64,000 nucleotides of DNA, taken from contig NC_091941.1 in the NCBI RefSeq assembly GCF_041260155.1, positions 40,558,747 to 40,622,746 of the forward strand. Direction: 5' to 3'. Numbering within the stretch: the first letter of the stretch is position 1; each line of letters opens with the position of its first letter. The stretch is from Ptychodera flava (lineage: Eukaryota; Hemichordata; Enteropneusta; Ptychoderidae). The notes under the pieces were generated by a model. That model worked only from the letters and a program-made list of their open reading frames with translations, was not told where the DNA came from and searched no databases. This document shows positions 4,576 to 64,000 of the stretch, piece after piece. Both the position numbers and the translations under genes were made by a program.

Positions 4576-4717
4576 GCCACGTGACTTTCTTTTGTTTCAA
4601 AAGTGTCCATTTTACAAGTTCTTTTGTTTAAAAGTGTCCGATTTACTAGTAAATCGGACACTTTTAAACAAAAGAACTTGTAAATCGGACACTTTTTAAA
4701 CAAAAGAAAGCCAGGTG
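4576..4717. repeat. Palindromic MITE (~140 bp)
   Basis: Centre 4614-4682 is an essentially perfect palindrome (acaagttcttttgtttaaaa, then gtgtccgattt, mirrored). The match extends outward, less perfectly, to ccacgtgactttcttttg on the left and its complement on the right. No coding capacity. Confidence 0.75.
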
Positions 4718-24434: not shown

Positions 24435-24760
24435 GTATGAGTCCTATCGTCAACCAACCAATGTACCAGTATATGAGTCCTATCGTCAACCAACCAATGT
24501 ACCAGTATGAGTCTTATCGTCAACCAACCAATGTACCAGTATATGAGTCCTATCGTCAACCAACCAATGTACCAGTATATGAGTCTTATCGTCAACCAAC
24601 CAATGTACCAGTATATGAGTCCTATCGTCAACCAACCAATGTACCAGTATATGAGTCCTATCGTCAACCAACCAATGTACCAGTATATGAGTCTTATCGT
24701 CAACCAACCAATGTACCAGTATATGAGTCCTATCGTCAACCAACCAATGTACCAGTATAA
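24435..24760. repeat. 36-bp minisatellite, left block (~9 copies)
   Basis: Unit begins tatgagtcctatcgtcaacc and continues aaccaatgtaccagta. Because 36 is a multiple of three, frames on both strands stay open and one would spell a 12-residue repeat (YESYRQPTNVPV). Some units are 34 bp, which shifts frame, arguing against coding. Confidence 0.95.
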
Positions 24761-25109: not shown

Positions 25110-25418
25110 TGAGTATATGAGTCTTATCGTCAACCAACCAATGTACCAGTATATGAGTCCTATCGTCAACCAACCAATGTACCAGTATATGAGTCCTATC
25201 GTCAACCAACCAATGTACCAGTATGAGTCTTATCGTCAACCAACCAATGTACCAGTATATGAGTCCTATCGTCAACTAACCAATGTACCAGTATATGAGT
25301 CTTATCGTCAACCAACCAATGTACCAGTATATGAGTCCTATCGTCAACCAACCAATGTACCAGTATATGAGTCCTATCGTCAACCAACCAATGTACCAGT
25401 ATATGAGTCCTATCGTCA
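25110..25418. repeat. 36-bp minisatellite, right block (~8-9 copies)
   Basis: Same unit, orientation and variant positions (gtcc/gtct) as the left block, resuming after the SINE; the last unit ends in tatcgtcagatgattgc. Confidence 0.95.
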
Positions 25419-35829: not shown

Positions 35830-35990
35830 CGGTTACATGTGTATTTTTTTAAACCTGAGGGGATCCGATTAGTCGCTCTGTAAATATTCCTTATCAGCGA
35901 TCTAAACGATCTCACGTTTACACGTCAATCAATAAGGTATAAATTTAGTTCGGGCCTAGCGGTATTCAATGGCCCAGAAAACAACCGGTA

Positions 35991-38900
35991 GTCCGTGGGC
36001 TAGAGGGGGTCTACGTGCACCCCCCCCCCCCACAGGATAACAAACCTGTATTTTTCAGGACCCTTGGGATCCCTAGAATACGAAATGGAATTTTAACAGG
36101 AAAAATATAGGGACGCAATAGCTGTTATGGTCATGTTTTGAAGGGTACCGCAAAATCACGATTTTCCAAGCCAAATGCATTTTCATCAAATCTGTCTTCT
36201 TGTAAGTGATGTGCTGAGCTCATTTTTTAACATAACCTCACTTGTTTGGTATCATTAGAAAGGGAATTTATTCGTCTTTAAGATGACATATTGCACTATG
36301 CAATATCTTCTACAGTTTTTGTCAAATATAACCAAAACTTACCCCTTACCCAAAAATTAAACATTGCAAATTACAGTAAAACTCAAATTCTACCAATTTT
36401 TTAGCTAGGCATAATAAAATATGCCTTGCTTTGTCTGAAATCTGTTTTATTTGATACAGGGACATGTCAGAAATATGAAATAGACTTTTAACAGAAAAAT
36501 ATTGGGAATCTACAGCTGTAACAGTCATACTTTGAAGGGTACTGCAAAATAACAGTGTTGCAGATTTGCATGCATTTTTGTTAAAACTGTCTTCTTATAA
36601 GTTATCTGCTGAGCTTGTTTTTGAATATAACCTGGCTTGTTAGGTATCATTAGAAAGATAATTCACTAGTCTTTGAAATGACATATTGTAACATGCAATA
36701 TCGTGTATGGTTTTCATGATATATGACCAAAACTTACCCCATACCCCAAAGTTTACATTGAAAATTTCAGTCATAGCTAAAACCAAATTCTACCATTTTT
36801 TTACCTAGACATATAACATCTGGCCATTTTTGCTATGAAATCTATTTTATTTGGTATAGAAACATGTCAGAAATATGAAATAGACTTTTTACAGAAAGAA
36901 TATTGGTATTCTATGGCTGTAACAGGCATATTTTGTGGAGTACTGCAAAATCACAGCAGTGCAGACTCATATGTGTTTTTGTTAACTTTGTCCCATTGTA
37001 GGTCATCTGCTGCGCTTATTTTATTACATAACCATGTTTATTTGGTATCATTAAAAAGCTAATTTACTACTGTTCTAAATGACATATTGTTATATGCCAT
37101 ATCTGATATAGTTTTCATGGAATATGACGAAAACTTACCCCATACCACAAAGTTTATATCGAAAATTACTTTCGTAGCTATCGTCAAATTCTACCAATTT
37201 TCTAGCTAGACATAACAAATAAGGCAATGCTTTATATGAAATCTTTTTATTTGGTACTGAGGAATGTCAGAAATATGAAATAGACTTTTAACAGAAAATA
37301 TATTGGGACTCTACAGCTGTAACAGTCATATTTTGAAGGGTCTCGCAAAATCACAGTATTGCCAACTCGCTTGCTTTTTTGTTAAATCTGTCTTCTTATA
37401 AGTCATCTGCTGTGCTTGATTTTTGACATAACCTGGCTTGTTAGGTATCAATAGAAAGGTAATTAACTAGTCTTTAAAATGACATATCGTAATATGCAAT
37501 GTCTTGTTTAGGTTTCATGAAATAGGACCAAAACTTACCCCATACCCAAAGGTTTACACAGTAAATTACTGCAAATCTGAAACTCTACCTTTTTTTACAA
37601 TTTATTAACTTTATATACCAAAGGCAATGCTTGTATGCAATCTATGAAATCTGTGTTTTTGTTAAAAAGTATGTCACAAATATGAAAATAACTTTTAACA
37701 GGAACGTAATATGATTTTGTAGCCTTTTGGATCATATTTGGAAGGGTACCCAGGTATCAGGGCAAATTTGCCGAAACACATACATTTTCAATATATGGGT
37801 TCCCCCTCCGAAAATGATCCAAATGGCAACTAAATTGTATCATCTTCCCGTTAAAAGTTAATTTTATACTTGTAACATACTTTTGTAACAAATAAATCAG
37901 ATTTTAAACAAGAATTGCCTTTTGTATTATGTGCAGCAAAAATGGTAGAATTTAAGAGAAGCCGTAATTTGCGATTTGAACTTTTTAAGTATGGAGTAAA
38001 GTTTGACCATATTTCAGGAAAACTATGAATGACATTGTATATTACAATATGTCATCTTAAAGAAGAATAAATTGCCCTACTAATGATACCTCACAAGCTA
38101 GGTTGTGTCACAAAATAAGTTCAGCAGATGACTTACAAGAAGAAGAATTTAACAAAAAAGATGCCAGTTTGCGGTACTGCGATTTTGCATTTCCCTTCAA
38201 AATATGGCTGTTACAACAATACAGTCCAAATATTTTTTCAGTTAAAAGTCTATTTCACATTTCTGACATGACCCAGTACCATATACAACAGATTTAATAC
38301 CGAAACAGAGCTATTTTTATCACGTCTAGCTAAAAATTCACGGAATTTGATCACGTTATCTAGGACAGTACTTTCAATATAAACCTTGGGGTATGGGGTA
38401 CGTTTTGGTCATATTCCATGAAAAATATACAAGATATTGCCTGTTACAATATGTCATTGTAAAGAATATTCAATTACTTTTTCAATGATACTAAACAAAC
38501 CCAGTTATAATCAATAACAAGCTTAGTAGACGACTTATAAGATGACATATTTAACAAAAACGCATGCGAATCAGGAATACTGAGATTTTGCTGTACCCTT
38601 AAAAATACAGATGTTACAGCTATAGAATCCCAATATTTTTTCTGTTAAAAGTTCATTTCATATTTCTGATATGGCAAAGTACAAAATAAAACAGATTTCA
38701 TACAAAAAATTGTCTAATTTTTTATGTCTGCGTAAAAAATTGCTTGAATTTGACATTAGCTATGGCAGTAGTTTTCGATGTAAATTTTGGGGTATGGGGT
38801 AAGTTTTGGTCATATTTCATAAAAATCTGTACAAGATATTGCATGTTACAATATGTCATTTTAAAGACTAGTAACTAATCTTACTAATGATACCTAACAA

Positions 38901-40748
38901 CTTACATTATATTCTATGAGAAGCTCAGCAGATGACTTAAAAGACGATAGATTCAACAAAAATGCACACAAGTCAGGAATACTGAGATTTTCCTGTACCC
39001 TTCAAAATCTGACTGTTACAACTACAGAATTCCAATCTTTTTTCTGTTAAAAGTCTATTTTATATTTTTGACATGACCCATTACCGAATGAAATAGATTT
39101 CATACAAATAAATGCCTGATTTTATATGTCTAGGTAAAGAAAATGGTAGAATTTGATTTTAGCTATGACTGCAATTTTCAATGAAAATTTTGGGGTATGG
39201 GGTAAGTTTTGGTCATATTTCATGAAAACTATAGAAGATATTGCATGTTACAATATGTCATTCTAAAGATTAGTAAATTATCTTTCTAATGATACCTACC
39301 AAACCAGGTTATATTCAAAAACAGACTCAACAGATGACATATAAAAAGACAGACTTAACAAAAATACATGCAAATCTGCAACACTGTGATTTTGCGGTAC
39401 CCTTCAAAATATGACCGCAACAGCTGTAGAGTCCTAATATTTTTTCGGTTAAAAGTCTATTTCATATTTCTGACATGTCCCTATACCAAATAAAATAGAT
39501 TTCATAACAAAAACGGCCAGATTTTTTGTGTCAAGCTAAAAAAATAGTAGAATTTGGTTTTAGCTATGACTGAAATTTTCAATGTAAACTTTGGGGTATG
39601 GGGTAAGTTTTGGTCATATATCATGAAAACTACACACGATATTGCATGTTACAATATGTCATTTCAAATACTAGTAAATTATCTTTATAATGATACCTAA
39701 CAAGCCAGTTTATATTCAAAAACAAGCTCAGCAGATAACTTATAGGAAAACAGTTTTTACAAAAATGCATGCAAATCTGCAACACTGTTATTTTGCGGTA
39801 CCCTTCAAAATATGACTGCTACAGCTGTAGATTCCAAATATTTTTTCTGTTAAAGTCTATTTATATTTCTGACATGTCCCTGTACCAAATAAAATAGATT
39901 TCATAGCAAAAACGGCCAGATTTTTTGTGTCAAGCTAAAAAAATGGTAGAATTTGGTTTTAGCTATGACTGAAATTTTCAATGTAAACTTTGGGGTATGG
40001 GGTAAGTTTTGGTCATATATCATGAAAACTATACACGATATTGCATGTTACAATATGTCATTTCAAAGACTAGTAAATTATCTTTTTAATGATACCTAAC
40101 AAGCCAGGTTATATTCAAAAACAAGCTCAGCAAATAACTTATAAGAAGACAGTTTTAACAAAAATGCATGCAAATCTGCTACACTGTTATTTTGCGATAC
40201 CCTTCAAAATATGACTGTTACAGCTGTAGATTCCCAATATTTTTTCTGTTAAAAGTCTATTTCACATTTATAACATGTCCCTGTATCAAATAAAACAGAT
40301 TTCAGACAAAGAAATGCATACTTTATTATGCCTAGCTAAAAAATTGGTAGAATTTGAGTTTTACTGTAATTTGCAATGTTAAATTTTGGGGTAAGGGGTA
40401 AGTTTTGGTTATATTTGACAAAAACTGTAGAAGATATTGCATAGTGCAATATGTCATCTTAAAGACGAATAAATTCCCTTTCTAATGATACCAAACAAGT
40501 GAGGTTATGTTAAAAAATGAGCTCAGCACATCACTTACAAGAAGACAGATTTGATGAAAATGCATTTGGCTTGGAGAATCGTGATTTTGCGGTACCCTTC
40601 AAAACATGACCATAACAGCTATTGCGTCCCTATATTTTTCCTGTTAAAATTCCATTTCGTATTCTAGGGATCCCAAGGGTCCTGAAAAATACAGGTTTGT
40701 TATCCTGTGGGGGGGGGGGTGCACGTAGACCCCCTCTAGCCCACGGAC
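35991..40748. mobile_element. Giant foldback element built of ~400-bp satellite units (4.76 kb)
   Basis: Ends are inverted copies (gtccgtgggctagagggggt at left; its complement at right), each followed inward by a poly-C/poly-G run and gataacaaacctgtattttt. The flank on both sides is TA (35989-35990, 40749-40750). The left arm holds about five forward units (marker ttgaagggtaccgcaaaat near 36136, 36530, 36935, 37335, 37737), and the right arm about seven inverted units (near 38190, 38600, 38994, 39397, 39797, 40195, 40589). The outermost ~430 bp of the arms are nearly identical; inner units differ more. The turn-around lies near 37790. No ORF with a domain. Confidence 0.85.
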
Positions 40749-40769
40749 TATGGTAGCTCGCAATGGTGG

Positions 40770-41330
40770 ACACAAACATCGGACCGCTGCTGTCTACGCC
40801 CTTTTTGTTTTCAATCAACCGATTGAGATGCCTTCAGCGAAGACATTTACAAGAAGAAGAGAATTTATTTTGATGGATAGAGAATCGTGTCACCCGACAG
40901 CGCATACTTTTATGGTTTCGTCAAAGGCAAAATCCTCAGATATGCTCGCACTTGCAACAACACTGACGACTTTACTAAAAAAAGTAGCATTCTTCACAAG
41001 TAAACTTCTCGACAGAGAATACAAAAACAAAGAAATCACTAAAATAACAGCAGAAATAGACCACAGAATTCGAAATACACCAACAACCCGCACAGTGACA
41101 CGAAAAGAAACAAGTTGAACGAACAAATTTAGTTTAAGCACAACATACAGCCCACACCTCAAAACAAAAGGAAGTATTTTGAAACACTGGGCAGAGCTGG
41201 AAAAAGACACAACACTAAGGAATCTATATCCAGAATCACCAATCATTGCTTACAAGAGAAACAAAACTTTAAAAGACACACTAGTCAAAACAAAATTTCC
41301 AGAAGTAAATAAACAAATAACAAACTAACT
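40770..41330 (+). pseudogene. Penelope-like retroelement remnant (C-terminal part)
   Basis: An open stretch from ~40750 to 41118 includes SCHPTAHTFMVSSKAKSSDM and LLDREYKNKEITKITAEID, and adjacent sequence reads TTYSPHLKTKGSILKHWAEL and IIAYKRNKTLKDTLVKTKFP. These match the connector between the reverse transcriptase and the end of Penelope-like elements (HP..., then TTY.P...L, then YRR-x-NLKD-x-LV-x-A). The GIY-YIG nuclease is not seen. The element is broken. It follows directly on the foldback's right end, and a partly matching copy lies at 42447-42840. Confidence 0.6.
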
Positions 41331-41980
41331 TGATCCCCAAATGGATTTACAACATTTAAGCACATTTTGCGTCGTACTTGAAGAACAAGAACACTGAATT
41401 CACTTAAAAATTGCACAGACACAAACTGAGGAAAGAATTTACTCTGCCACCGATGAGAAAGCACACTTGGGTTTCGAAACGTAAGCGACAAAGGTGCACT
41501 TACGGTCGCGAGGGACCGTGGTGCACTCTATCAACTCTTGTAAGACTGTATCCGTAGGTCTGGCTGCGTCTGTCCATAAGATTTCCCTACACAAACAAAA
41601 CACTATCGTACATATTATGATAAACTTTAAAAGACACACTAGTCAAAACAAAATTTCCAGAAGTAAATAAACAAATAACAAACTAACTTGATCCCCAAAT
41701 GGATTTACAACATTTAAGCACATTTTGTGTCGTACTTGAAGAACAAGAACACTGAATTCACTTAAAAATTGCACAGACACAAACTGAGGAAAGAATTTAC
41801 TCTGCCACTGATGAGAAAGCACACTCGGGTTTCTAGATGTAAGCGACAAAGGTGCACTTACGGTCGCGAGGGACCGTGGTGCACTCTATCAACTCTTGTA
41901 AGACTGTATCCGTAGGTCTGGCTGCTTCTGTCCATAAGATTTCCCTACACAAACAAAACACTATCGTACATATTATGATA
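41265..41980. repeat. 358-bp tandem duplication (2 copies) at a Penelope-like 3' end
   Basis: 41265-41622 and 41623-41980 are nearly identical (a handful of differences, e.g. gcgtcgtac/gtgtcgtac). Each copy runs from aactttaaaagacacactag to actatcgtacatattatgat. Antisense frames over both copies give twin 66-68-residue products, an artefact of the duplication. Tandem partial copies with shared ends are typical of Penelope-like insertions. Confidence 0.85.
41450..41525 (+). ncRNA. Hammerhead-ribozyme-like core (candidate, degenerate)
   Basis: In the first 358-bp copy: CCGATGA, stem GAAA/TTTC, then GAAAC, followed by GTAAG...CTTAC as a possible stem III and GTC as a possible cleavage triplet. 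The second copy (from 41808) has the intact CTGATGA but an altered GAAAC. Penelope-like elements are known to carry hammerhead motifs. Stem I is not convincing, so activity is doubtful. Confidence 0.3.
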
Positions 41981-42446
41981 AACTTCCCGACACATATCCA
42001 AAACGAAACAAACAATATGGTAACACAAACTTTTGGATAGTAAGGTGGGGAGCCTCTTTCACATTTTTATGCGAGTTAGAAGACAGGATATACATGTAGT
42101 TCGGCGTTTAGTTCGGTGTTCTGGTCACACATGTAAAGAGGCCATTGTTTAGTACGGAGCACCGAACCAGCCCCTTTGACACCGAATTAATTTAGTTCTT
42201 TGTTAGTTCGGTGTTGTCTGGTCACACGTCCAACTGACACAGGTTTAAATTTATTCCAGTGTCAGCTCCGGAGTAAACACGCACGTGTTCACACTCTGTG
42301 GCTATATATATAGGTGGGTTTACACGTGTAGTTTTTTAAACCGGAGGGAATCTGATTAGTCGCTCTGTAAATATTCCTTATCAGCGATCTAAGCGATCTC
42401 ACGTTTACACGTCATGCACAAGGTATAAATTTAGTTCGGGTCAAGC

Positions 42447-47548: not shown

Positions 47549-50500
47549 TCATTTATGAGTAATTTTGTTGTTGATGAAATTTAAAATGAAATCCTTGGAA
47601 ATTTTATTAGAATCTGTACTTGTCGACTGCCCTTCATGGACCTTGACACCTTCCTCCCAAATCCAGTGATATCGATTCTGTTGACAAAACCTGAAATCAA
47701 AAGACAAACCATGTTAAAATAGGCTATCATTATTAAATAATTTAGGTGGTCATCACATCTACAAGTCATACAACATTTACTGCAGTACTCTCAATGTCAT
47801 ATCAGGAAACACATGGATAGAGACATTGTCACACATTATCAACACATGTTACAATTGTGCGACATCACTTATAATCAGTTTTCCTGGATTTGATGTTGAC
47901 AGGAAGCTCACAAAATTGTAAAAAAATATTGATTTATCGAAGTGATCTCTATCTGCGACTAGATATGAACTGAAAATGCTCTTTTTTTCTGCATATGTTG
48001 CCATTGTCTGAAATTGACATTTCTCTAGATTGTTACAATTGCTACGAGTTTGTATTCTCATTAGAGTTGTCGTAATCAACATCACATGCAATATTCATCA
48101 TGCATAATTTCAATCAAAAATCTTCTTAATAGGAAATTAGACGAGACGAAAAGATAAATTTCTTTCAATGCTGTCGTATCATTGCATCATCACTTTTTGC
48201 AGTAAGTTTGATTGCCTTTGGTCGAGTCATTAAAGATTATATTCAAAATCGTACAGCTCATTATATCTCAAAATTAAAGATAAGCTGAAAATACAGAATG
48301 TCTTTCAATATACATAGTAATTTTCCTCAACTTTGGCAAAGTCCTTCCGGATAGATTTGACTGATCAAGGTCATGGAATGTGTAAAATAGTAATAAGCTG
48401 ATGTGAAAACATAGGGCCAATATCTCTGAAGCTACTATAGACATGGATATAAAATTAACTATTTCCTGACTGTATGAAATAATCTCACTAAGGTTAAAGG
48501 GACCTGTATACCAAATATCAAAGCTGCCTGACCAGCTGTTTTAAAGATAAAGAGACCAATAGCTCCACTATTTTATGTAGAGAACTATTTGTAACGCGTA
48601 TTGATGAAGAAGGTGGGTATCTTTGATAGCTCTTTTCAGGATGGCCTGACCAGAAATGAAAAAAATAGTTGCAAAAATACAAAATTGAAGATTTCATCAT
48701 AATTTCAATAAATCAAATTAAGATAAACCCTAGGAACCTGTATACAAAGTATCAAAGCTGTCAGATGAGTAACTTTTGAGAAACAAATTATTTGACCAAA
48801 AATGGCAAAAATTGCCCAAAAAATAAAGAATTGAAAATTTCATCAAATTTTCACAACATCACATTAAGTTCATCCATAGAAACCCATATACCAAATATCA
48901 AAGCTATAAGATAAGTAGTTTTTGAAAAACAAAGTTTTTAACCAAAAATGGCAAAAATTGCACCCAAAAATACAAAATTGTAGATTTCATCATAATTTGA
49001 ATATACCACATTTTGATATTTCCTATGTAGGTGTATACCAAATATCAAAGCTATGAGATAAGTGGTTTTTGTGAAAAAAATGTTTGACCAAAAGTGACAA
49101 AAATTGCCTTAATAATACAAATTTGCATATTTCTACACAATTTGCATAAATTTGAAAAAGGTCATCCCTAGGGACCAATATCCCAAATATAAAAGCTGTC
49201 TGACTAGCAGTTGTGAAAAAGGAGATTTTTAAAGATTTTTTGACCAAAAATGACAATAATTGCCACAAAAATACAAATTTGCATAGAATGCTGGTTAGTA
49301 ATGAGCTTATGTAAAAATTCAAAATGACTCTCATTACCGTTATGTCACAGTATCTTTAACATATGTAGCAAGTTTCATCAACTTTGGTCAAATTGATCCA
49401 GATATATATCTCTAATTTGGAAAACTTCTTAAACCCTGGCTCGAAAAGGCCCAGGATCCCTATTAACTAAGGTGTTAAGAAGATTATGAGGTGTTTTTGT
49501 CTTTTGTTCTCCTTTGAAACTGCAATTGTTATATAAATATGTTGCTAGATTTTTGGATTAAGTCCTCACCGGGCTTTAAACATGCTAGGTAGAAATAAGC
49601 TGATGTAAAAAATGCAAAAATGACTTTCATTACTGTAATATCACTATTAGTTAGGTGGCTTAACAAAAATATCCTTACACGAATGACAAAAGTGCCAAAT
49701 TTGCTACAGATGTTCGCATATATGTGTAGATCAATATTAGCTATTGCTCCAAAAATTTTGGCCACCGGAAAGGCTCGATGACGTCATAAATTCAAAATGG
49801 CCGCCATTATAAAGCTTAAAAATGGTAAAATACGTCTAATTCAGGCAGTTTTCAATATTTTTTGAATAAACCAACACAAACATCCCAAATTACAAATACA
49901 ACATAAAATTGATGCAAATCAATTATTATGATGACGTCATAAAGGCAAAATGGCTGACCACATTCAAAATATCCCCCATATTATCGTCTGATAATGTTCA
50001 AATACTGTTAATTAAGCTTGTTTCCAGCATTTTAAACCCTGTACTGAAATTAACACCCAAAATTATAGACAAAACATATAATTGATACAAATTCATTATT
50101 GTGATGACGTCATAAAAGCAAAATGGACCGAAAATTACAAAATGACGTATTATGAAGTTCACCGTGCTTAGTAAAATAGCCAATTTACGTGACAAAATAA
50201 TACTTTAAAGGTAATCTACAATTTGTCTTGATAATCCATAAACTCAAAATAAATGATAAATGTACTAAAACTTAGCCAATAAGCCGAACACAAATTACAA
50301 ACTATTACGAAATTATTTATTTTTAACAATGACCTCTGTCTGAAAAACTGAACCAATATCAAGGAAATAAAGGTATCTTTACCCATAGGTTCTACCTTTG
50401 AAAGTGTTACGTTATAGTGAGTACATCAATAGTGATGTGATTTTATGATAACGAAAAACATGGCGAGAAACCGGTGAATAAATCATGCCTTGACCCTGGT

Positions 50501-53500
50501 CATGTGACTTTGGTCCCTGAAAAAAAGGTTTTATGTTTGTGATTTTGGTCTTTTGCTTCCTTTGTTTCAGAAGCCTTTTTCGTTTGAATTTTCTTGGATT
50601 TTTATGTCTTGATGTGTGGTGACATAGTTTTGTGCTACAGTTACTGTAGTTCTCCTTTTGGAGGATGTGCCGGCCTGAAAAAGATCATTTGGTCAGGGTT
50701 TTATGAACAAAAAGAAGACTAATGTTTGCTTTTTGAATCTAGCTTAGCTTACTTTTTTGCAGCTTTCGTGAATTTTATGAAAAGCGTCTTTGCCTTTCGT
50801 TGTTCACTTACCAGACTGGTTAGGAATTCAAAGATGAAGGAAACTGCAAAAAACGTGACCAGACGAGTTTTGCTGTTTGGAAACCCAAAACATAAAAAAC
50901 ACCAGAAAGAACATAAGCAGAAATGGAAGGTTAAACAAAGATAAGAACTCATAAAGATCCTCAGATTCATCAACAATCTCGTAAATCAAACCTTAATCAA
51001 AGCATTTTAAGTAAAGGCTTGAAATTTATTCCCACTCCGGAGTGTCTAGAAAAATTGTCGTATGAGATATCAACAAATTTATTCGCATCATAAGATTATG
51101 CAATATCATGAGAAACAATCAATCAATCAATCAGACATCTGTTCTTAGATAAGTACATGTTCAACACTAGTAACCGCGGAAAACCCAAAAATTGTAAAAC
51201 TGTCTCGAAGTAACTTAGATCGATAGAGGAAATTTCATTCACAACCCACTTCAGAAAGAATATGACTCTGGCAGAAAAGAATGCCCTGAACAATCTGTCT
51301 AAAAAACAAACAAATCTTAATGAAACCCATCAATAAAGGATGAGGCATAGCAATTGTGAATAAGATAAATGACATTAAAGAAAGTTATAGACAGCTGCGA
51401 ATTGAAAAATGTTCACTAATACATTTGGCGACATTGACTATACAGTGGATATTGTATACGAAATCATTTATCTGCGACATGAAGATCATTGGCGAGGTGA
51501 TTTACAATTTCCCAATTTCCATAAGTAGAATAATTTGTACACCACGATGGTATCTCCTGCCAAAAATACACAAAACCAAAGCAGAGGAAACAACCATCAC
51601 CCAACGTCTCAATAGAAATGGCTGCTCGAGCCCAATAAAACAAATGTCGGAATTTCTCGACCTTGTCATAAAACCAATCGTCCAAAACGACTTATAAATG
51701 CCAGGGACACAAAAAAACTTTATTCTCTAGTTAGAACCAATTAAAAAAACAAGCAAACTCTATTCTGGTAACATTAGACGTGGTATCAATGTAGTAAAAC
51801 ATGTCAAAAATGAAGCCAGAAATGCAGCGATCGTAGCATTGGACTCTGAAACAGAACTGCCAACTGGTATGATACAAAAACCAACCATCAATGTACATGA
51901 AAGACTTAACTGTCGATTATTCTGAAACGCAACATATTTTAATTCAACAGAAAAATACAAACGAATCTATGGATGCAGTATGGGCTCACCAGAAATAGCT
52001 GATATCATATACCATGAAACGGAGAAAGTTATATTAAATCCCAAATCCGCTGAAATATTCGTATGGAAATTTAAAAGGTGACATGTTCATGGTTTACACA
52101 CGAATCAAACATCAACTTTTAACATTCAGAACATTTGTTGAGGAGTGCAACACCCTGTACTCTACGTTCAACTTGGGAATTAATAATTGAACATTCTATC
52201 GACAAAATCTCATACCTTGACGCAATTGAGAGAGATGCCTCGATTTTAAAACCCACACAAAACCATCTGACGATATTTATCTGCCACTGACTTTCAAATG
52301 CTTCATTGAAAGTGAATTACTCAGATATGTACATGCAACAACAATATGGACTTCATAAAAAGGTCAATTTCTCAACGCAAAATCTTCAACACAGAGATTA
52401 CAAAAAGAAAGACATAGCTTGTATAAAAAAGAATGTAACAAAACGTCAGCCATCCTTCATCAACAAAAGTAAGAGTAATGATGTAACAAAATACTAGTCT
52501 TTACAACCTCATCAAAACCAGCCTAATCAAACAATGTGATAAGAATCTGGAAAATTATGAAGGGCGATTAAACGCTGGCCATGGTTTTCCAGAAAACCTA
52601 TAATAACGTATAAAAGGAAGAAAAACATACAATATATCCTCCTTCAAGCAAAATTCAAACACAAGGAGAGTAAAAATGAACGGTCTGAGCAACAATTCAC
52701 GCAAAATTCTGACCAAAATATAATGATTTTAGCATCTCTCTTTGATGCATTACGGGAAACCTCCATTAACTTAGGAATACCCGACTTCCCTAGAATATCA
52801 ATTTCACAGACCTGCCTTTCCTACAATGGCACTACAATGGCACCAGCTGGATTAGATAAACATATAACAATGGAACATTCACACCTAGGGGATTAAAAGT
52901 CTTCTGTTTGTCACCCGAGTTGGTCAGGCAAGAACTCGGGTTTCAGGTACCATGCAAGTTAATGCAGCCTTCCCCTAATGGAACAATGGCTACCATTAAA
53001 GTGAGCATGCGGGAATACAAAACCATTCAAGTGACTGAAGAAGGGACCCCACTTTGGCCCGAAACGCCGCTAGGAGGAATAACCAACATAAAACCTTATT
53101 TCTGGGACCAAGGTCACATTTCGAGGGTCAAAGCACTATCGATTCACTGGTTTCTCACCATTTTCCCTTATCACCAAACCACATTGATCTACTCACTATA
53201 CCGTATCACAAGCAAAGGTAGAACCAGTGTGTGAAGTTGCCTTCATTTCCTTTATATCGATTCGATTTTTCAAACACAAACCAATTTTAGTAATCAATAA
53301 TCTCATAAGAGTTTTAACTTGTGTTGAACTTATTGGCTGAGTTTTGATACATTTATCTTTTATTTTAAGTTTATGGAATATTAATACAAATTGTACATTA
53401 CTTTTATACTATCATTTTGTCACGTAAATGGGCTATTGTACCAAGCATAGTAAACATCATAATCGTCCATTTTGTAACTTTCGGTTGCCATTTTGGTTTT

Positions 53501-56500
53501 ATGACATCATCTTAATAATTAATTTGCATCAATTATCTGTTTTGTCTGTAATTTGGGGTGTTCATTTCAGTTCAGGTGATAAAATGCTGAAAACAGGCTT
53601 CATTAACAGTGTTTTAACATTTTTAGACAATGTTATGGCGGACATTTTGAATTTGGTCGGCCATTTCGCCTTTATGACGTCATCATAATAATTAATAAAT
53701 ACAATATCTCTCTTCGACAAATGATCGCTGATGGCATCGGTGACATTGGGCCTTAGTTAGTGACCACTACCTATCTGACTTATAGATTGATATATGGCGG
53801 GTGCCACATGTGGGGCAGGATGCGCTTACTATTTTAGAAACACCTGACATCACTTCTTGGTCTTCTGGCCAGAGGTCCATATATCTTTCTTTCATGAATA
53901 TGACTTTGTTTGTGTACCGTCTATTTACTGTCTGTTCTGTGCTGTTTTGTGTCTATGTTTACAACTATTGTCTTGCGAATTCCGACCTACTGTCATTGGA
54001 TTATGGATTGGTATGATTGCGATTATTTTGCATCAATTCAATGTTTTATTTATAATTGAGAATGTTTGAGTCAGTTTATTTACAAGAATAGTGAAAACTG
54101 GCTGAATAAACTATTTTACCATTTTTAAGCGTTATAATGGCAGCCATTTTGAATTTATGACGTCATCGAGCCTTTCCGGTGGTCAACATTTTTGGAGCAA
54201 TAGCTAATTTAGATCTACACACATATGTGAACCTCTGTAGCAAATTTGGCACTTTTGTCATCCATGTAACGATCTTGCTGTTTTTTGTTGCTAAGCCACC
54301 TGACTATATATCTTCAATGTACATAGCAAGTTTCATTAACTTCGTTTTGTTAATCCCAGACATAATCCCTAATTAATATTTATGCAAAACAACAAAACCA
54401 TCATCATAAAACTTCTACATGACCTTAGCATCTGTCACATAGTTAATTTAGTAATGTCTGTTGGAAGATTCAGATCACACGATATGATACATTCTGAGAA
54501 AATTTGATTATTGAACAGATAGTTAGACAAATTAGTGTTAATTATGCAAGCCACACCTATCAAAAACTAATCTGCTGTTCTTGAGATATGTGTACTATAT
54601 CATTTATCTGGAGACATCGGTATGACATTAGCTGAGATTTCAGACACACACGCTGAAAATGATTAGCCTTTCCTATTGGCAGTACACTGAGCAAAGTAAT
54701 TGACTGGTTTAAGTCATAATTAAAAAGTAAGAAATAACAAGGACTGTGAACTTCAGAAACAGCTTACCTATAAAGCTACCATCAAAAAAATTTTCTTTCT
54801 TTCATAAAATATAGTTTTGTAAATGGAACTCACAGATAATCAGACACCATATCACAGCATTAGACACACATTCTGCTGAAAGCCATAGACTCAAATGTCA
54901 TAGGTTTGTTTAGATTTCTATAAATACAGGAAATATGATTTCCACTCTCTGATGATAAGGATCTGTAGTATTAATCCAAACTGTGAAATCTTAATCAGAG
55001 TCTAAGATGACAAAGATGGCGCCATCACACATTTTTATTCATGGAACAAAAACTTAAATAGAAATTATGAGAAATGAGTTACTCACTTGAAAGTACCGAT
55101 TGAAGACTTAGGAATTTCAAAAAGAGACTCATGTGTAATGGTGTTGTAGAAATACTTCCTATTCTGTGATCTACTCAGTGCAATAATCCAAGGATCTTAC
55201 AAAAACACAAAAGATGAGAACAATGGATAATGCAGAGAAAGCTACAGGCTTTAATTCATACTAATCATGAACATCATAGGCATTCCATCTCTGCAAATTT
55301 TATGTACCACACATTGGTAAATAGCAACAATCCATAATCTATATAACTTTCAAACTTTAACATCTGCTTTTCAGGATGTTTGTCAACAGCATAAATGAAG
55401 TTAGAGCATTATATGTATGAAGTCAGCTGATTGGCTGGTCCAGTTGCTCCACATAATACAAGTCACAAACAATTAACATGTTGTAATTGACCTATTATTA
55501 AGATAGTTTTACAAAAACAGAAATTCACCACATTTACCTTGAGTTGTTTTGATGAAATAGACACCACTTGGTATCAAGTGTCTATTCTCTTTGCCTGCAT
55601 AACACAACCTTGGCATTTTGCCAGATCCTTTCACAATTTTCATCGCAAGGCTACAAAGCAAAAACATTCAACAATCAGTGTGATGATGTCAAAATATCAA
55701 TATTAAGAGTCAAAAAACTGACTGGCTGAAAATTAATGACTGATTTGCTTGGACCAATGTATTTGAAATTCAAGAAATCTGACAGATCAGTGAATTCTAA
55801 ATAGAATTGCATGCAGGACTATGTATCTGAAGAGTTATGGAGTCACATTAATACTGGTCACAGGGACTGTCAAATGGATTTGTTTACTTCTGATTAGACT
55901 CTGAAGATGATAAATATGAGTGGGCTATTACGGTAACCCTTTCACCACAATGGTTTGGCCCAAACTGTTTGATTTCAATGGTGAGTGTGGCCCTGTGTGC
56001 TTGAAAATGGGGATGTAAAGGTTAAGGTAATACAAAAACATTCAGGTTGCCAAGGGAATGAGTAATATCCTGGAAAACACAGAGTTTGTGATTACATTTA
56101 TCTGCTATACATGATAACGTAACCAAGCATGAAATCATCAAGGTTTATCTTGAAATCCAGACAGACTTTTCACAGTCAAAGTGTTGTCTGGGAATTAACA
56201 GGATCTCAGAAAGGATCAAAATTTACTGATATTGTAATTTTAAACTTTTGTGAATAGCATTTGTATAAAAAAATACGAGAAAAATTGCTAAATGTACAAA
56301 TGTTTCTGTACATGACTGCCATTTTGGAAAATTACCAGATTTGATCATCAAATGCATGCTGACTTCATCAGTATTGTCTGCAGTTAAAAAAAGCATCAAT
56401 GACACCCTACTCCTATTTGATGATATTACACACTATATGTAGAATGAAGCATATTGTATCAGGTATCTCTTTCTGACACTGATCAATTTGTGACACAAAG

Positions 56501-58927
56501 AAAGGTCTGCCAAGAAGTCTGCTATTTGATGTGGACATAATTAATAAGGTTATAGCACCTAAAATTCAGATGAACTCATGAAACAGCTGTTCTATAATTT
56601 TAGGGTCACAAGTGTCAATAGCACTTTGTACAATTTTGGTTACATTTTATACAAAGGTATGTGACACATACTGTATCATGCATCATCCTCTATTTCTACT
56701 GATCAATGTGCAACACCAATACAAGCCCTGCTAACTGGCCCATTACCATAGTAATAACAAATTTTATAAATTCCAATGGAGCACATTCCTAGCAATATGA
56801 AAACTAAATCTCTGAGCAAGTAAACACACTTGCCATACTTTATAAGATTTGTGAATGGATTATCAAGGTTTTCTAAACACAAACTGAAGTTTCTAATTTC
56901 ACAAAACGTTGAACAAATTGGAACAAGACAGGAAGCCTAAACATGACATTTACAAACCATCAGACATTGTTTCACAGAAGACTTCTGACAAAATGGTTAC
57001 AGTTTAAAGGTTCCAAGACAAGAAATTTGACATTTTTAAACTAACAATTCTCTAGTGGTTAATAACCTCAGAACCCCTGTAAATTACATATTTTCGGAAA
57101 ACCTAGATATAGGGGAACATTTTGGTTACCATAGTGTCACAATTGTTTACATAACTATCACGTGACAGGTAATTTGCATAACCTTTCAAAGATCGGTTTT
57201 CCGTATGTTTGGTTCAATGCTTTGAGATACGTGGCTGAAATTTGTGTGAGTGCAAGCTGTCCTACGGATCTTCCAAACTGTGTCTCAGATTTTTTTAAAC
57301 CTTCTTAAACAATTTTTATGCCAGACAAACTTCCAGAGTAGTGAATTTAACCGTAGTTGATTTCTTCAAAATTGGGCTCAAAAAAAACTATACAAGATAT
57401 AAAAAATCTGAGACACACTTTGGAAGAGCGCTGTGACAGCTTGCATTCAATGAAATTTGAATCAGATATTTTGAAGTATTGAGACAAAACAAAGGGGATT
57501 TATGAAAGGTTATGCAAATTACCTGTCATGTGATAGTTATGTAAACAATGGTGACACTGGCTACCAAATCTAGTCTTTCCGAAAATATATACTGTACGGG
57601 GGTTCTGAGCTTATTAATCATTAGAGAATTGTTAGATTAAACAGGTCAATTTCTTGTCTTGGAACCTTAAACACACAGCTTTGCTTGCATTTTAAATGGA
57701 GGAGTCATTTAGGTGTTGAAGTAACCAAAGTTCTTGTGCAAAATCCACAAAGATACTTGTTTTATTGAAGAGAGTGTGATAAAATGTTTGTTTTCTTTTT
57801 CAGATTTTATCATGACATCAGCTGGCCATGAGGTACATATATAAATGATATACAGTTGTTGTGATTTATTTTCCTTATTTTGAAGTCCTCACGAAATCTG
57901 CATAAATTCATCAAATGCTATATTTCTAGGTTTACAGTATTCAGTAATAACATTCAAGGGACTCTACAACTCTACATTTCAAATTTCAAAGTGAATGGAA
58001 GAGCTCTATGACTGCCCTAAAATAAACTGACATTCTTTATTCTTTCCAATTGAAAACCATGTCAAAATATCACAAACATTCAGGAGAAATTACATAAATT
58101 TTCACTTTTTTCCAAACATACAGAGATTTGCTAATAGAACATTGTGACAGTAATAGTAGTAGAGCCATTAATTAGTTTATGAGGCTGTGCTGTTAGTCCA
58201 TCTATTTTACTCATTTGCATATCAGTCATTCTATCAAGGTTGTTCAAACTTGTAGATTACGGACATCTTTAGCATAGCAGAATTTAGCAACATCACTGAG
58301 TTTTAAGTAAAATAATTTTGAGGATTCTTATCTTAGCAAATAAACATTTGCACACAGAGTGAAGGAGCACAGGATGGATAATTGGTGACTTATTTAAATA
58401 CTGAAAGTTAAAAAATACAACTTTCAATAACTTCATGGATGTAAACATGCTGTGTTAATCACATGGATATATGTTTACTCACAAAATTTCATTACGGTTT
58501 TTTTTTGTATTGTATACTTCTAATAATACTGAATGTGGAAAGTATTTGATCATTAGGTCACTAAGGGTGATTTTCTAAATACGGCAATAAGGACTTTGCA
58601 AGGGCCCTTTTAGGCAGACATTTTGATGTGCAAGTGTTTATGATATGAAAAAAAGAGTATCATAAAATCAATTTAAACATATGCAGATGGATGATCAGAA
58701 TAGGTTGCTATAAATTCTGTCCACAATAAATTCAGTATTTGTAAAATTAGAGAGAGTTTCAATGATTGTGCTTTTAAATCAATAGATTTGAGTACAAAAT
58801 ACAACATTACCAGTCAAAGATCTGATGAAGTTCTTCCAGTTTGTAGATTTGTTTTGTTCGTAGAGGTGCTAAGTCTGGTCGACTGGGTTTGTGGACGGCT
58901 TTCACAAACATCTCTGCTCTCATCATT
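47549..58927 (-). CDS. CMTR1: CMTR1, cap-specific mRNA (ribose-2'-O) methyltransferase, last four coding exons (partial)
   Basis: Minus-strand exons 58811-58927, 55538-55650, 55087-55195, 47549-47690, all GT-AG with matching phases (2, 1, 2). They read: [20 protein letters not shown] and [11 protein letters not shown], then [20 protein letters not shown] and [14 protein letters not shown] (end of the guanylyltransferase-like domain), then [20 protein letters not shown] and HESLFEIP (WW-type domain), then [16 protein letters not shown] to the stop at 47549-47551. This order and wording match the C-terminus of animal CMTR1, which methylates the first transcribed nucleotide of capped RNA in the nucleus. 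The methyltransferase domain would lie beyond the window. The last intron is 7.4 kb and holds a large inverted-repeat element. About 159 codons are seen. Confidence 0.9.
48490..49310. repeat. Degenerate ~145-bp tandem repeat in the CMTR1 last intron
   Basis: The phrase accaaatatcaaagct recurs near 48510, 48745, 48890, 49037 and 49178 (periods mostly 138-147 bp), each followed by gaccaaaaatggcaaaaatt and a cataatttcat-like block. A related block continues to 49649 and again just right of the inserted element (~54310-54380), so that element interrupted this array. Confidence 0.7.
51350..52760 (+). pseudogene. Penelope-like reverse-transcriptase remnant, heavily broken
   Basis: Recognisable pieces: [34 protein letters not shown] (the P..S..GSPTE.IS..VD region), [20 protein letters not shown] (the MGSP block), later ITKRKT- and [11 protein letters not shown]-like segments. 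Many frame changes indicate an old copy. It lies between the inverted arms. Confidence 0.55.
53035..53065 (+). ncRNA. Hammerhead-like CTGAAGA-stem-CGAAAC motif (candidate)
   Basis: CTGAAGA (53035-53041), a GC stem (GGG-A-CC, loop, GGCCC) and GAAAC (53061-53065) reproduce the hammerhead catalytic core around stem II. It sits where the right arm joins the Penelope-like core. Stems I and III are not evident, so this is a motif call only. Confidence 0.3.
53697..54031. mobile_element. ~330-bp SINE/LINE-tail-like insert in the right arm
   Basis: Aligning the arms shows extra sequence here that the left arm lacks. It includes ggcgggtgccacatgtgggg, caggatgcgcttac and aacacctgacatcact, phrases that look like the conserved core of SINE/LINE tails in marine invertebrates. 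No tRNA-type boxes recognised; family unassigned. Confidence 0.4.
57008..57667. mobile_element. TTAA-flanked foldback MITE (~660 bp) in a CMTR1 intron
   Basis: Long inverted arms ~57008-57300 and ~57395-57667 start (A)GGTTCCAAGACAAGAAATT and share gttctgag, tcggaaaa, gtgacaggtaatttgcataa and ctgagacac in mirror order. TTAA flanks both ends (57004-57007, 57668-57671). No ORF. Confidence 0.8.
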
Positions 58928-60559: not shown

Positions 60560-61332
60560 TGGGAAAAAAGATCAGACCTGTAGCTGTATTGGCCAGCCAA
60601 GAAATACATATGCGCATAATAAATGAGGTACAAGATGTGACATCTTAAGGTCTAATATCCTATTAAAATTGAAGGGTATAGAACTTGTGGTTACTGAGAT
60701 ATGCATATATATGTATAATCAAGGTCAAAGGTCATTGAGGTCACGTGACATTTTGAAAAAAAAAAGTATTGCTAATAAACCCCTATATGCCAAAAATCAG
60801 ACCTCTACCTCTATTCGCTTGCCCAGAATTAGATATGTGCATAATAAATGAGGTAAAGCGTGTGTTGTCATAAGGTCTCCCATCCTACTAAATATAAAGG
60901 ACATAGCACTTGTGGTACTTATTTATTGACATAAACGTATATTTTAGGTAAAAAATCAAGTTCACATGACATTTTGTCAAAAAATTTCTATCCTATAGTT
61001 ATCCCTATATACGAAAAATCAGACATCCAGCTCTATTGGCTTGCTCAGAATTAGATATGCACATAATTAATGAGGTGCAGTATGTGGCGTCATAAGGTCT
61101 CCCATCATACCAGATATGAAGGGTGTGGCACTTGTGGTTACTGAGTTATGGACAAATATGTATATTTGAGGTCAAAGGTCATTGAGGTCACGTGACATTT
61201 TGTCAAAAAAAACTGTATTGCTAAGTTATCCCTATATACCAAAATCAGACCTCTAGCTCTATTGGCTCGCTCAAAATTAGATATGTGCATAAATAATGAG
61301 GTATAATATGTGGCGTCATCCCATCATACCAT
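60560..61332. repeat. ~225-bp tandem repeat (~3.4 copies)
   Basis: Markers tcacgtgacattttg at ~60741, ~60962 and ~61189 give periods of 221 and 227 bp; each unit also has aaaatcagacctctagctct, attggct, aattagatatgtgcataa and ataaggtctcccatcat. The last unit stops abruptly at about 61332 where LINE sequence begins. Confidence 0.85.
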
Positions 61333-61334
61333 AT

Positions 61335-62096
61335 TCCCTCTTTGAAGAAGTTGCCTCACTGAAAAATGATCTACGGTCTATCTGTGATCATTTTCAGAGC
61401 CAGTTGTTACAGACACAGAAGGCCGTTGAATTGCAGTGTCAAGATCGTGTTATTGCCGAGGTACGTGAATTGAAAAAACAATTGTCATCGTTGCGGAATT
61501 CTCTTGAGAACAAAGTGGCGGAGATCGAGGGCAAATATGCTTCAACTGTATATTCAGTCGGTGATATCATGGACAAACTTTCTTTTATTGATGATAAAAT
61601 AACAACGGCTGATACTAAGTTAGGAAAGGTAAACTTGGTGAATTCGTTTGCTGAATCTTTGAACTCCGTGTCACGTTCACGGAGAAACACCTCTGCTTCT
61701 GCGACCGCTGTGACGTCATCAATAGAGGTTGGTGTAGGTGCAACTCGTGATTGTGAGCGTGTTGTCTCCAGTGTCGCACCTCCCGCAGATCTTCATCGTC
61801 ACAATGTAGTTGGTAATATCACTCCCCAGTCGCAAACATCTCATTCAACAACACCAGAACCAATCCTGTCGAATACTCCTCGGTCTGATCCTCTACCGCC
61901 GTCTTCCGCGGTAAACCAGAGCCCAGCGAAATTCTCACGATCGACTGAGCGTTCGCCTACCATTCCAACTCCCAGTACTCCAAACGCGTACGCTAACCGG
62001 TATCAGAGTCGTCCAGATGAATCGCGTCGTAGCAGCGTTGATGAAGCTGATAGTCGGACGAGTTCTACATATCGCCGGACACAGTCTCGCATATAG
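61335..62096 (+). CDS. LINE ORF1, N-terminal part: coiled coil and Ser/Thr/Pro-rich linker
   Basis: From LFEEVASLKNDLRSICDHFQ the frame shows heptad-like segments (LQCQDRVIAEVRELKKQLSS, LRNSLENKVAEIEGKY) followed by a low-complexity Ser/Thr/Pro/Arg linker. The coiled coil of LINE ORF1p drives multimerisation and RNA binding. The frame is open upstream to an ATG at 61296, but those 13 codons come from the tandem repeat, so the true N-terminus is missing. It stops at TAG 62094-62096; the next 14 codons and the esterase continue in the same frame, so the TAG probably interrupts one longer ORF1. Confidence 0.7.
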   Translation, partial: SLFEEVASLKNDLRSICDHFQSQLLQTQKAVELQCQDRVIAEVRELKKQLSSLRNSLENKVAEIEGKYASTVYSVGDIMDKLSFIDDKITTADTKLGKVNLVNSFAESLNSVSRSRRNTSASATAVTSSIEVGVGATRDCERVVSSVAPPADLHRHNVVGNITPQSQTSHSTTPEPILSNTPRSDPLPPSSAVNQSPAKFSRSTERSPTIPTPSTPNAYANRYQSRPDESRRSSVDEADSRTSSTYRRTQSRI

Positions 62097-62138
62097 GGTC
62101 CGCATCGTCCACGATTCATAAGAGATGACGGTCGTAAC

Positions 62139-62813
62139 GTGAACTGTAATGTCCTTGTATTAGGTGATTCAATTACTAAGTACATCAACACGAGTTTGTT
62201 ATATAAGAATAAGCGTTCTGTTAAGCTTAGAGCTTCAAATATTGATGAAGCTTTTTCAAGTTTGAGAAATGTCAATAATATTGATGCAGAGATTGTAATC
62301 TTGCATATAGGGTCGAATGATGTTGGTTATTTACGTGATGATGTAATCATTGATGGAATAATTTCATTATGTAATGAAGTTAAATATGTCTGTCCTAAAG
62401 CAATGATTGTTGTGTCGGGTATCTTACCTTTCCATGGTGAATACTCCATTCTAAATAATCAAATCCAGTATATCAATGAGAAGGTTAAGAATGCATGTTC
62501 TGACACAAATCACTGCGTCTTTGTAGATCATTATAGATTAGGTAACAATAGCTACCTGTATCACAGTGACGGAATTCATATAAATTCACGAGGCACAAGT
62601 TTATTGGTGAGTGATATTAAATGGGGTGTCAGAGCAACAAAGAGAAACGATGTAACCACTCATTCTCGTACATATAGATCCCCGTCAAATTTTAGACGGG
62701 TGGATAGTAGAGATTCTTTCCAAGGAAATAGGCCCTACAGTAGAAGGCCATACTATAATTATGGCAATGGTTTATACGCTAGATATGATCAGGGTGATCG
62801 CAACCAGTTTTAG
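62139..62813 (+). CDS. LINE ORF1, C-terminal part: SGNH-type esterase domain
   Basis: NVLVLGDSITKYIN carries the block I GDS nucleophile; IVILHIGSNDVGYL carries block III GxND; YHSDGIHINSRGTSLL carries block V D-x-x-H. The catalytic Ser, Asn, Asp and His are all present. CR1-group LINEs are known to carry this esterase in ORF1, where it may act on lipids or ORF1p targeting; the exact role is unsettled. A basic Arg/Tyr-rich tail (RSPSNFRRVDSRD, YSRRPYYNYGNG) may bind RNA. In frame with the coiled-coil part across the TAG at 62094. Confidence 0.8.
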   Translation: MNCNVLVLGDSITKYINTSLLYKNKRSVKLRASNIDEAFSSLRNVNNIDAEIVILHIGSNDVGYLRDDVIIDGIISLCNEVKYVCPKAMIVVSGILPFHGEYSILNNQIQYINEKVKNACSDTNHCVFVDHYRLGNNSYLYHSDGIHINSRGTSLLVSDIKWGVRATKRNDVTTHSRTYRSPSNFRRVDSRDSFQGNRPYSRRPYYNYGNGLYARYDQGDRNQF

Positions 62814-62846
62814 ATTGTGACCAGCACAGCAGATATGTTAATGCAA

Positions 62847-62948
62847 GTTACCTGTATCACAGTGACGGAATTCATATAAATTCAGGTGGCACAGGTTTTT
62901 TGATGAGTGATATTAAATGGGGTGACAGAGCATCAAAGAGAAGCATTG
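62847..62948. repeat. ~100-bp partial repeat of the esterase block V region
   Basis: Copies 62551-62652 (tacctgtatcacagtgacgg through gatattaaatgggg) at an offset of 296 bp, with several differences. It lies after the ORF1 stop, in the inter-ORF region. Confidence 0.8.
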
Positions 62949-63187
62949 TTTCCTTTCATGTTGTTTGTTTTTAATGTCCTGGGACTGTCTAGATACAGCC
63001 ACTAATGGCTACAATGTTACACTGTGCTCCAAAAGAGTTGTTGTGTGTCCATTAACTTTTGTCAACCTGGTGCTAAATTTAGCACACCTGTTATTCTGGC
63101 TACTTTTTTCTATTTCTATTTGTAGTCAGCTGTTCATAAAGTTTTCCTTCAATTTATCCAGTTCTGTTATTCAGCTTTTACACTGAC

Positions 63188-64000
63188 ATGTGTTTTGCCT
63201 CGCAGAGACAGAGTACTGCTGTTTTAAGAAGGAATTTTAAGCGTTCTTTTTTACGTGTTGGAAGTTGGAACATCCAAGGTGGTTTATCAAAAAAATGTGG
63301 TGATGAAGATTTTCTATCAATTGTTAATCTATTTGATATAATGTGTATTCAAGAAACGTGGCTTTCAAAGTCAAACACTGTTGCTTTTGATAGTTATAGT
63401 TATTTTAGATCTGATAGAAATTTACAACATAAACGCAGTAAACGTGTTGCTGGGGGATCTGTTGTTGTATTTAAGTCATGCTTTAAGTCAGGTATCCATA
63501 AGATGAATTCAAAAATTTCTGACTTGCTCTGGGTAAAACTTGATAAGGATTTTTTCTCATTTAATAGTGATGTTTTTATGTGTTGTGTATATTTGCCTCC
63601 ACAAGGGTCTGTAATGCATGTAAATAATGATTATTTTGAAGCTCTTCATTCTGAGATTCTTGAATTTTCGAGTTTGGGAGACATAATTTTAGTAGGAGAC
63701 TTTAATGCTAGGACAGGTAATTTGCAAGATTATATTCAACATGATGACATAAATCACTGTCCTACACCTAATGATTATATTCCTGACTCCGTACATCATA
63801 GAATTTCAATGGATAATGGTAATTGTAGTATCAATCCCTTTGGGAGACAACTTATCGATCTTTGCATTCAAAACAGCTTACAGATTTTAAATGGTAGAAC
63901 TGCAGGGGATCTTTATGGAAAACCAACTTGTTACAAGAGAAATGGATTTAGTACAGTAGATTATGGTATTGTTACAAAGAATTTAGTGGACCGGATAGAT
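63188..64000 (+). CDS. LINE ORF2, endonuclease domain (partial, runs past window end)
   Basis: From ATG 63188 the frame is open to the end (271 codons). Apurinic-endonuclease motifs: VGSWNIQGG, DIMCIQETWLSK (catalytic Glu), CCVYLPPQGS, ILVGDFNARTG (Asp and Asn), FGRQLIDLCIQNSLQILNGR and FSTVDYGI. The final SDH motif and the reverse transcriptase would lie beyond the window. The frame is also open somewhat upstream of 63188, so the start is a best guess. No break seen in the visible part. Together with ORF1 it suggests a fairly young insertion. Confidence 0.85.
   Translation, partial: MCFASQRQSTAVLRRNFKRSFLRVGSWNIQGGLSKKCGDEDFLSIVNLFDIMCIQETWLSKSNTVAFDSYSYFRSDRNLQHKRSKRVAGGSVVVFKSCFKSGIHKMNSKISDLLWVKLDKDFFSFNSDVFMCCVYLPPQGSVMHVNNDYFEALHSEILEFSSLGDIILVGDFNARTGNLQDYIQHDDINHCPTPNDYIPDSVHHRISMDNGNCSINPFGRQLIDLCIQNSLQILNGRTAGDLYGKPTCYKRNGFSTVDYGIVTKNLVDRID

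Follow-up and report, generated by a model that had tools for sequence, protein, structure and literature searches.

A 4.76-kb inverted structure with tandem-repeat arms in Ptychodera flava, probably a non-autonomous foldback transposon

An inverted structure of 4,758 bp (4.76 kb) lies at positions 35991-40748 of the window, as we call the whole 64-kb stretch of Ptychodera flava DNA analysed here, which has a GC content of 36.4%. The initial annotation had delimited it exactly to the base, and its description as a foldback, in which inverted arms of ~400-bp units end in matching tips, is borne out. Tandem Repeats Finder (TRF) detects two arrays, one per arm, with periods of 400 and 402, the inverted-repeat scan pairs the arms with each other, and the direct ~400-bp period is present within both. 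The components are listed below, with units numbered from the tips towards the axis in the left (L) and right (R) arm.

35989..35990, no strand: left TA flank, a possible target-site duplication or the last 2 bp of the terminal inverted repeat (TIR)
35991..36081, + strand: left tip domain, 91 bp, 57% GC, begins GTCCGTGGGC..., poly-C at 36020-36031; equals the right tip domain bar one C
36082..36476, + strand: unit L1, 395 bp; 97.7% identical to R1, at most 78.6% to other units
36477..36876, + strand: unit L2, 400 bp; 95.7% identical to R2, 94.0% to R3
36877..37276, + strand: unit L3, 400 bp; 73-78% identical to all full units, none of those in the right arm being a clear partner
37277..37683, + strand: unit L4, 407 bp; groups with R7 at a bootstrap of 78, raw identity higher to L2/R2 (80.4%) than to R7 (74.7%)
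37684..37785, + strand: partial unit L5, at the axis; groups with R8 at a bootstrap of 100 (73.9% identity, versus 54-65% to others)
37786..37863, - strand: partial unit R8, at the axis
37864..38256, - strand: unit R7
38257..38659, - strand: unit R6
38660..39061, - strand: unit R5
39062..39463, - strand: unit R4; 87-88% identical to L2/R2/R3
39464..39863, - strand: unit R3; 96.0% identical to R2, 94.0% to L2, and probably derived from R2 by recent duplication
39864..40263, - strand: unit R2
40264..40658, - strand: unit R1
40659..40748, - strand: right tip domain, 90 bp, 57% GC; 40709-40719 is a poly-G run (+ strand)
40749..40750, no strand: right TA flank

The tips, which carry the sequence GTCCGTGGGCTAGAGGGGG, are the best-matched part of the structure. 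Read inward from 35991 and from 40748, they show no substitution over their first 173 bp, and their sole difference is the length of the homopolymer that had already been noticed near the termini, with 12 C at 36020-36031 against 11 G (+ strand) at 40709-40719. In the first 100 columns of the arm alignment, which represent the extreme tips, 99 of 99 aligned bases are identical. The GC content of the tip domains is 57%, compared to 31% in the element body, and the left tip domain still has 51% if the poly-C run is left out. A 21-base tip sequence, searched with up to three mismatches, occurs twice in the window, both times at the ends of the element, where shuffling leads to an expectation of 0.00.

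TA is present immediately outside each tip, as the initial annotation had stated, and beyond it the left and right flanks are unlike each other (...ACCGG to the left, TA, TGGTAGC... to the right). The direct repeat common to the flanks ...CCGGTA and TATGGT... consists of TA only, and a target-site duplication (TSD) of 8-10 bp as in Tetris or other Mutator-type foldbacks is absent. Polinton/Maverick elements possess a 6-bp TSD and a TIR starting with AG; here the hexamers just outside an AGT start, ACCGGT (left) and ATGGTA (right), form no such duplication. Because TA is its own reverse complement and constitutes 7.9% of the dinucleotides in the window, we regard the TA flanks as weak evidence of a TSD, which may be due to chance or represent the last 2 bp of the TIR.

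The two arms are of unequal length. With the repeat start taken as reference for the register, units begin at 36082, 36477, 36877, 37277 and 37684 in the left arm, and, from its own tip, at 40658, 40263, 39863, 39463, 39061, 38659 and 38256 in the right arm, beyond which alignment detects a further partial unit near the axis. The left arm thus comprises four full units and one partial unit, the right arm seven full units and one partial unit; the inverted arrays of the initial annotation stand, but not its counts of about five and about seven. The best in-register match of the arms spans 1,724 alignment columns with 26 gaps, at an identity of 87.2%. The axis is at ~37785, where L5 and R8 approach each other within some tens of bp without a separate middle domain; the boundary between them was placed by us with a precision of likewise some tens of bp. 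As is characteristic for foldback elements, long TIRs make up most of the element and their arms reach the axis, each TIR being composed of the outer tip domain (91 and 90 bp, respectively) and the tandem repeats (4+1 and 7+1).

The full units are 67-96% alike, the L1/R1 pair apart. An 18-base unit motif, allowing up to three mismatches, is found 10 times in the window (expected 0.08), and all occurrences are within the element. The initial annotation's term "satellite" for the unit is consequently not upheld in the window, where no unit copy lies outside the element by this search. Each full unit contains a short imperfect dyad (ATATTG...CAATAT in most; e.g., 36291-36320), which is longest in L1/R1; its conservation does not exceed that of shuffled columns, and we claim no function for it. 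Likewise, a conserved protein-binding block could not be recognised in the unit, as the top three 20-base stretches listed do not rise above shuffled columns (p 0.14, 0.19 and 0.34) in a test based on eight of the 11 full units, from which the near-duplicates R1, R2 and R3 were omitted. The tip domain might be thought to be a diverged unit end. We do not claim this: in a comparison with the tail of L1 the score was reached by 0.37 of 300 shuffles, and a profile of nine unit junctions extends, with low confidence, across those ~40 bp of the tip domain that are nearest to the units, while the tip domain alone yields no match.

The relationships among the units provide insight into the history of the arms. 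In the unit tree, L2, R2 and R3 form a group with 100% support, as do L5 and R8, and L4 groups with R7 at 78%. At both extremes of the arms similarity hence follows position across the arms and not neighbourhood within an arm (L1/R1, L2/R2, L5/R8). The pairing of L4 and R7 in the middle is weak: its bootstrap is 78, L4 shows a higher plain identity to L2/R2, and over the final 110 columns both units have their best match in L3 (67.4% for L4, 75.9% for R7), L4 being there no nearer to R7 (64.0%) than to most other units. An earlier tree, in which R7 and R8 were left uncut, placed L5 beside L1/R1 with a local support of 0.787.

Divergence between the arms is unevenly distributed. Over the first 358 bp the arms differ by a single substitution, over the following 532 bp by 25, with three single-base gaps in all (Fisher p 4.6e-5, the 358-bp cut having been picked after the positions of the substitutions were known). 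If the change point is searched for freely, the main step falls at ~810 bp, and none of 2000 permutations gave one as strong. Past the L2/L3 boundary, blocks of 100 bp are 75-83% identical up to 37578, followed by three last blocks with 82-89% identity, each over just 28-54 aligned bases. The gradient from nearly identical ends to drifted inner units, as initially described, is therefore real, but the well-matched outer tract extends over ~0.89 kb, about twice the ~430 bp given before. Judged from the sequence, the simplest history would be that of one old symmetrical palindrome, the arms of which changed their unit number independently and the outer ~0.9 kb of which were recently made alike again. 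R3 is probably a recent copy of R2, and this duplication probably the latest gain of a unit.

A neutral old palindrome is expected to be alike at its axis, where folding starts, and blurred at its outer edge. The observed pattern is the reverse, with the tips most alike and the axis most diverged, which favours a process acting from the ends, for example the repair of transposon ends after excision, as a likely cause of the outer homogenisation. The initial annotation's suggestion that the termini are kept alike by recent mobility or gene conversion gains support from the same pattern, as the outer ends are more alike than the interior.

The element itself appears to lack coding capacity. Its longest stop-to-stop frame has 82 aa, and none of its six frames of at least 60 aa matches Pfam at an E-value of 0.01; no source of a transposase was found in its frames, and a second copy of the tip is absent from the window at up to three mismatches. 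More degenerate tips reach best local scores of 36 and 34 in the window, compared to 30 for one control, the reversed tip, and the first 29 bp of the tip alone score at best 26 elsewhere in the window (control 22). The two top alignments cover part of the tip domain and miss its terminal bases, so we do not count them as family members, but they are possibly decayed relatives. Other poly-C runs, at 5996, 6563, 6598 and 6634, have no tip-like surroundings. Joining the flanks with one TA revealed no interrupted gene by eye. Neither the exact 21-base tip nor the exact 18-base unit motif occurs in the viral_contigs collection. The unit motif has exact matches in six bacterial stretches of the genome_contigs collection; none of these matches the element over more than 28 bp (best E 0.0002, with more than one short match per stretch), and we take these six to be chance matches, of which ~7 are estimated for a collection of that size.

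Foldbacks with tandem-repeat arms are a kind of element that is already known, and the suggestion of the initial annotation that a new class of foldback had been found does not hold, as Tetris (PMC4079207) and Galileo F (PMC3573991) share the plan. Tetris, described in 2014 from Drosophila virilis and also present in D. americana, is a non-autonomous foldback, the TIRs of which begin with a flanking domain, continue with ~220-bp tandem repeats and close with an inner domain; two alleles differ through the duplication of one unit, and the repeats seeded satellite arrays (PMC4079207). The Ptychodera element resembles it in being non-autonomous and in its long TIRs, in which an outer domain gives way to tandem repeats, and Tetris likewise has no conserved ORF; its repeat number also varies between copies (PMC4079207). 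It differs from Tetris in its ~400-bp units, in the TA flanks in place of a TSD of 8-10 bp, and in units that reach the axis in place of an inner TIR domain and a middle domain. Furthermore, a 37-bp stretch is common to the flanking domain and the units of Tetris, a link not established for the present element (PMC4079207).

In Galileo F of Drosophila mojavensis, long TIRs contain internal tandem repeats of ~210 bp, the number of which differs between the two TIRs of one copy, and it has been suggested that Galileo TIR repeats contain secondary transposase sites (PMC3573991). By contrast, Galileo was placed in the P superfamily by its transposase sequence and the TIRs of the F subfamily measure about 0.9-1.26 kb (PMC3573991), while no transposase was found for our element. 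Three further systems share some of these features. Tm1, a Mutator/Foldback element of root-knot nematodes, also possesses composite TIRs with a tandem-repeat number differing between the ends, but with ~14-bp units, a mostly 9-bp TSD and a putative transposase in some members (PMC3169594). miDNA4, a Tc1/mariner MITE of Xenopus tropicalis, is non-autonomous and carries tandem repeats, but its satellite motif is present as one monomer or as an array, and inverted arms of the repeat do not figure in the passages describing it (PMC12628747, PMC9659126). The Cg_HINE elements of Crassostrea gigas are non-autonomous mobile elements that carry dispersed short satellite-like arrays, but are of the Helentron type without TSD, and their repeats are central between two flanking modules (PMC7492417).

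Among the matches listed, whose titles and abstract openings were covered, no description of a TA-flanked foldback with tandem arms was found. The palindromic Tc4 and Tc6 elements of C. elegans are possible TA-type foldbacks. Possible differences from the known kind are the TA flanks, the longer units and the lack of a middle domain.

We consider it likely that the element is a non-autonomous TIR (class II) foldback DNA transposon that is moved in trans. This reading is supported by the sharp tips with TA outside both, the GC-rich tips on a body of 31% GC, the best match at the extreme tips and the published elements of like plan. In an old palindrome evolving neutrally, identity at the extreme tips should have been lost, so the tip match counts for a transposon; sharp ends alone are no proof of transposition, because any inverted duplication has two of them. 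The window holds one copy of the element, and its mobility is putative. Transposition would depend on a transposase supplied from elsewhere, which would recognise the ~90-bp tips and use TA as the insertion site. The arms may have begun as one tandem array that was duplicated in inversion, and from such an origin it follows that units near the tips and near the axis should have their counterparts at the same position of the other arm. At these two places the unit tree indeed supports the correspondence, its support between them being weak. Each arm would subsequently have gained and lost units through unequal exchange or slippage, of which the derivation of R3 from R2, as suggested by their identity, may be an example. 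The pattern of an outer ~0.9 kb with drifted inner units is observed; recent re-copying of this outer part from arm to arm would most likely have happened while the ends were repaired following excision, or through conversion within a folded-back molecule. By analogy with Galileo, the extra units might serve as secondary transposase sites.

A more far-reaching reading, to which we give a minor chance, is that of a TA-inserting, Tc1/mariner-like foldback family, which would use whole ~400-bp satellite-like arrays as its ends and re-copy these from one another at each transposition, driving concerted evolution from the tips inward. The TA flanks fit the assignment to Tc1/mariner but are weak evidence for it. 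It is also conceivable, if rather doubtful, and compatible with the preferred reading of a foldback transposon, that a genomic satellite array was captured by a transposon, which carries and spreads it. The ~400-bp units in tandem would agree with this, and related cases are known, namely Tetris, whose repeats seeded arrays, and the HINE elements of Crassostrea; yet the 64 kb contain no unit copy elsewhere, and with 67-96% identity (L1/R1 apart) the full units are less uniform than expected of an actively homogenised array. The distinct L1/R1 unit beside the tip likewise suggests a long history within the element.

Other readings appear less probable. The edge of a tandem array may have been locally duplicated in inversion and kept partly alike through conversion in a cruciform, a history that would account for the single copy in the window, for two sharp ends by construction and for TA flanks that arose by chance. 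We regard it as unlikely, since the pair that has diverged most, L5/R8 (74%), is located at the axis, whereas the arms agree best at their extreme tips; cruciform pairing would start at the axis, and conversion should then fade, not peak, at the outer boundary. Selection for a long-hairpin RNA, i.e., a dsRNA that feeds small-RNA silencing and is maintained for that role, is very improbable: the two arms can pair over 1.7 kb, but these features equal those of a foldback by-product, and the divergence of the inner arms is rather high for a hairpin under selection. Least probable of all is an artefact of the assembly, either from a fold-back (missing-adapter) read or from a mis-joined inversion. 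Large palindromes are a known type of artefact, but a fold-back read should give near-identical arms of equal length, whereas the arms here have 4+1 and 7+1 units, a difference of three full units, and differ by 17-26% in their inner parts; the flanks outside the tips are moreover unrelated.

The known kind is extended here by an apparent foldback with long arms of tandem repeats, which may belong to a TA-inserting group. A single copy already reveals much of the element's past, i.e., a symmetrical origin, independent changes in copy number and outer homogenisation, and studied across its genome the element would provide a clean test both of the upkeep of transposon ends by end repair and of the seeding of satellites by the arms.

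Several other repetitive and palindromic regions were observed in the window. Directly right of the element, at 41264-41985, there is a tandem duplication of 358 bp (98% alike); frames near it resemble the end of a Penelope-type reverse transcriptase, and the one nearby frame that was scanned, at 40729-41115, matched no Pfam family. Pfam comparisons of 10 ORFs, chosen from 247 stop-to-stop frames of at least 60 aa, gave matches above the curated cut-off in three of them, to a Myb/SANT-like domain, a GDSL-like hydrolase and an endonuclease domain, respectively, and Rfam reported nothing at gathering thresholds. The latter two Pfam domains belong to the second and third of the consecutive ORFs at 61293-64000, which would fit a LINE of the type with an esterase in its first protein.

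Another inverted structure, which is more diverged than the element, is formed by 49648-50544 and 53078-54306, with arms that are 81-85% alike and about 2.5-4 kb apart, an extra ~330 bp in the right arm, and no clear tips or TSD by eye. Shorter sequences of this kind comprise a self-complementary region of 668 bp at 57004-57671 (74% alike) and a palindrome of 142 bp with CCACSTG ends at 4577-4718 (93% alike). Tandem arrays are present at 48647-49233, with about four copies of a ~146-bp unit (74% matches in TRF, 68-73% to one copy in the repeat scan), and at 24436-24759 and 25112-25418, where two arrays of one 36-bp unit, separated by about 350 bp, share their orientation (95-96% matches). The region 2462-3516 looks like a young MITE-like element: its inverted 174-bp arms, which begin with GCTATAGC, are 98.9% alike, and a near-palindrome (93.9%) is situated between them at 2638-2849.
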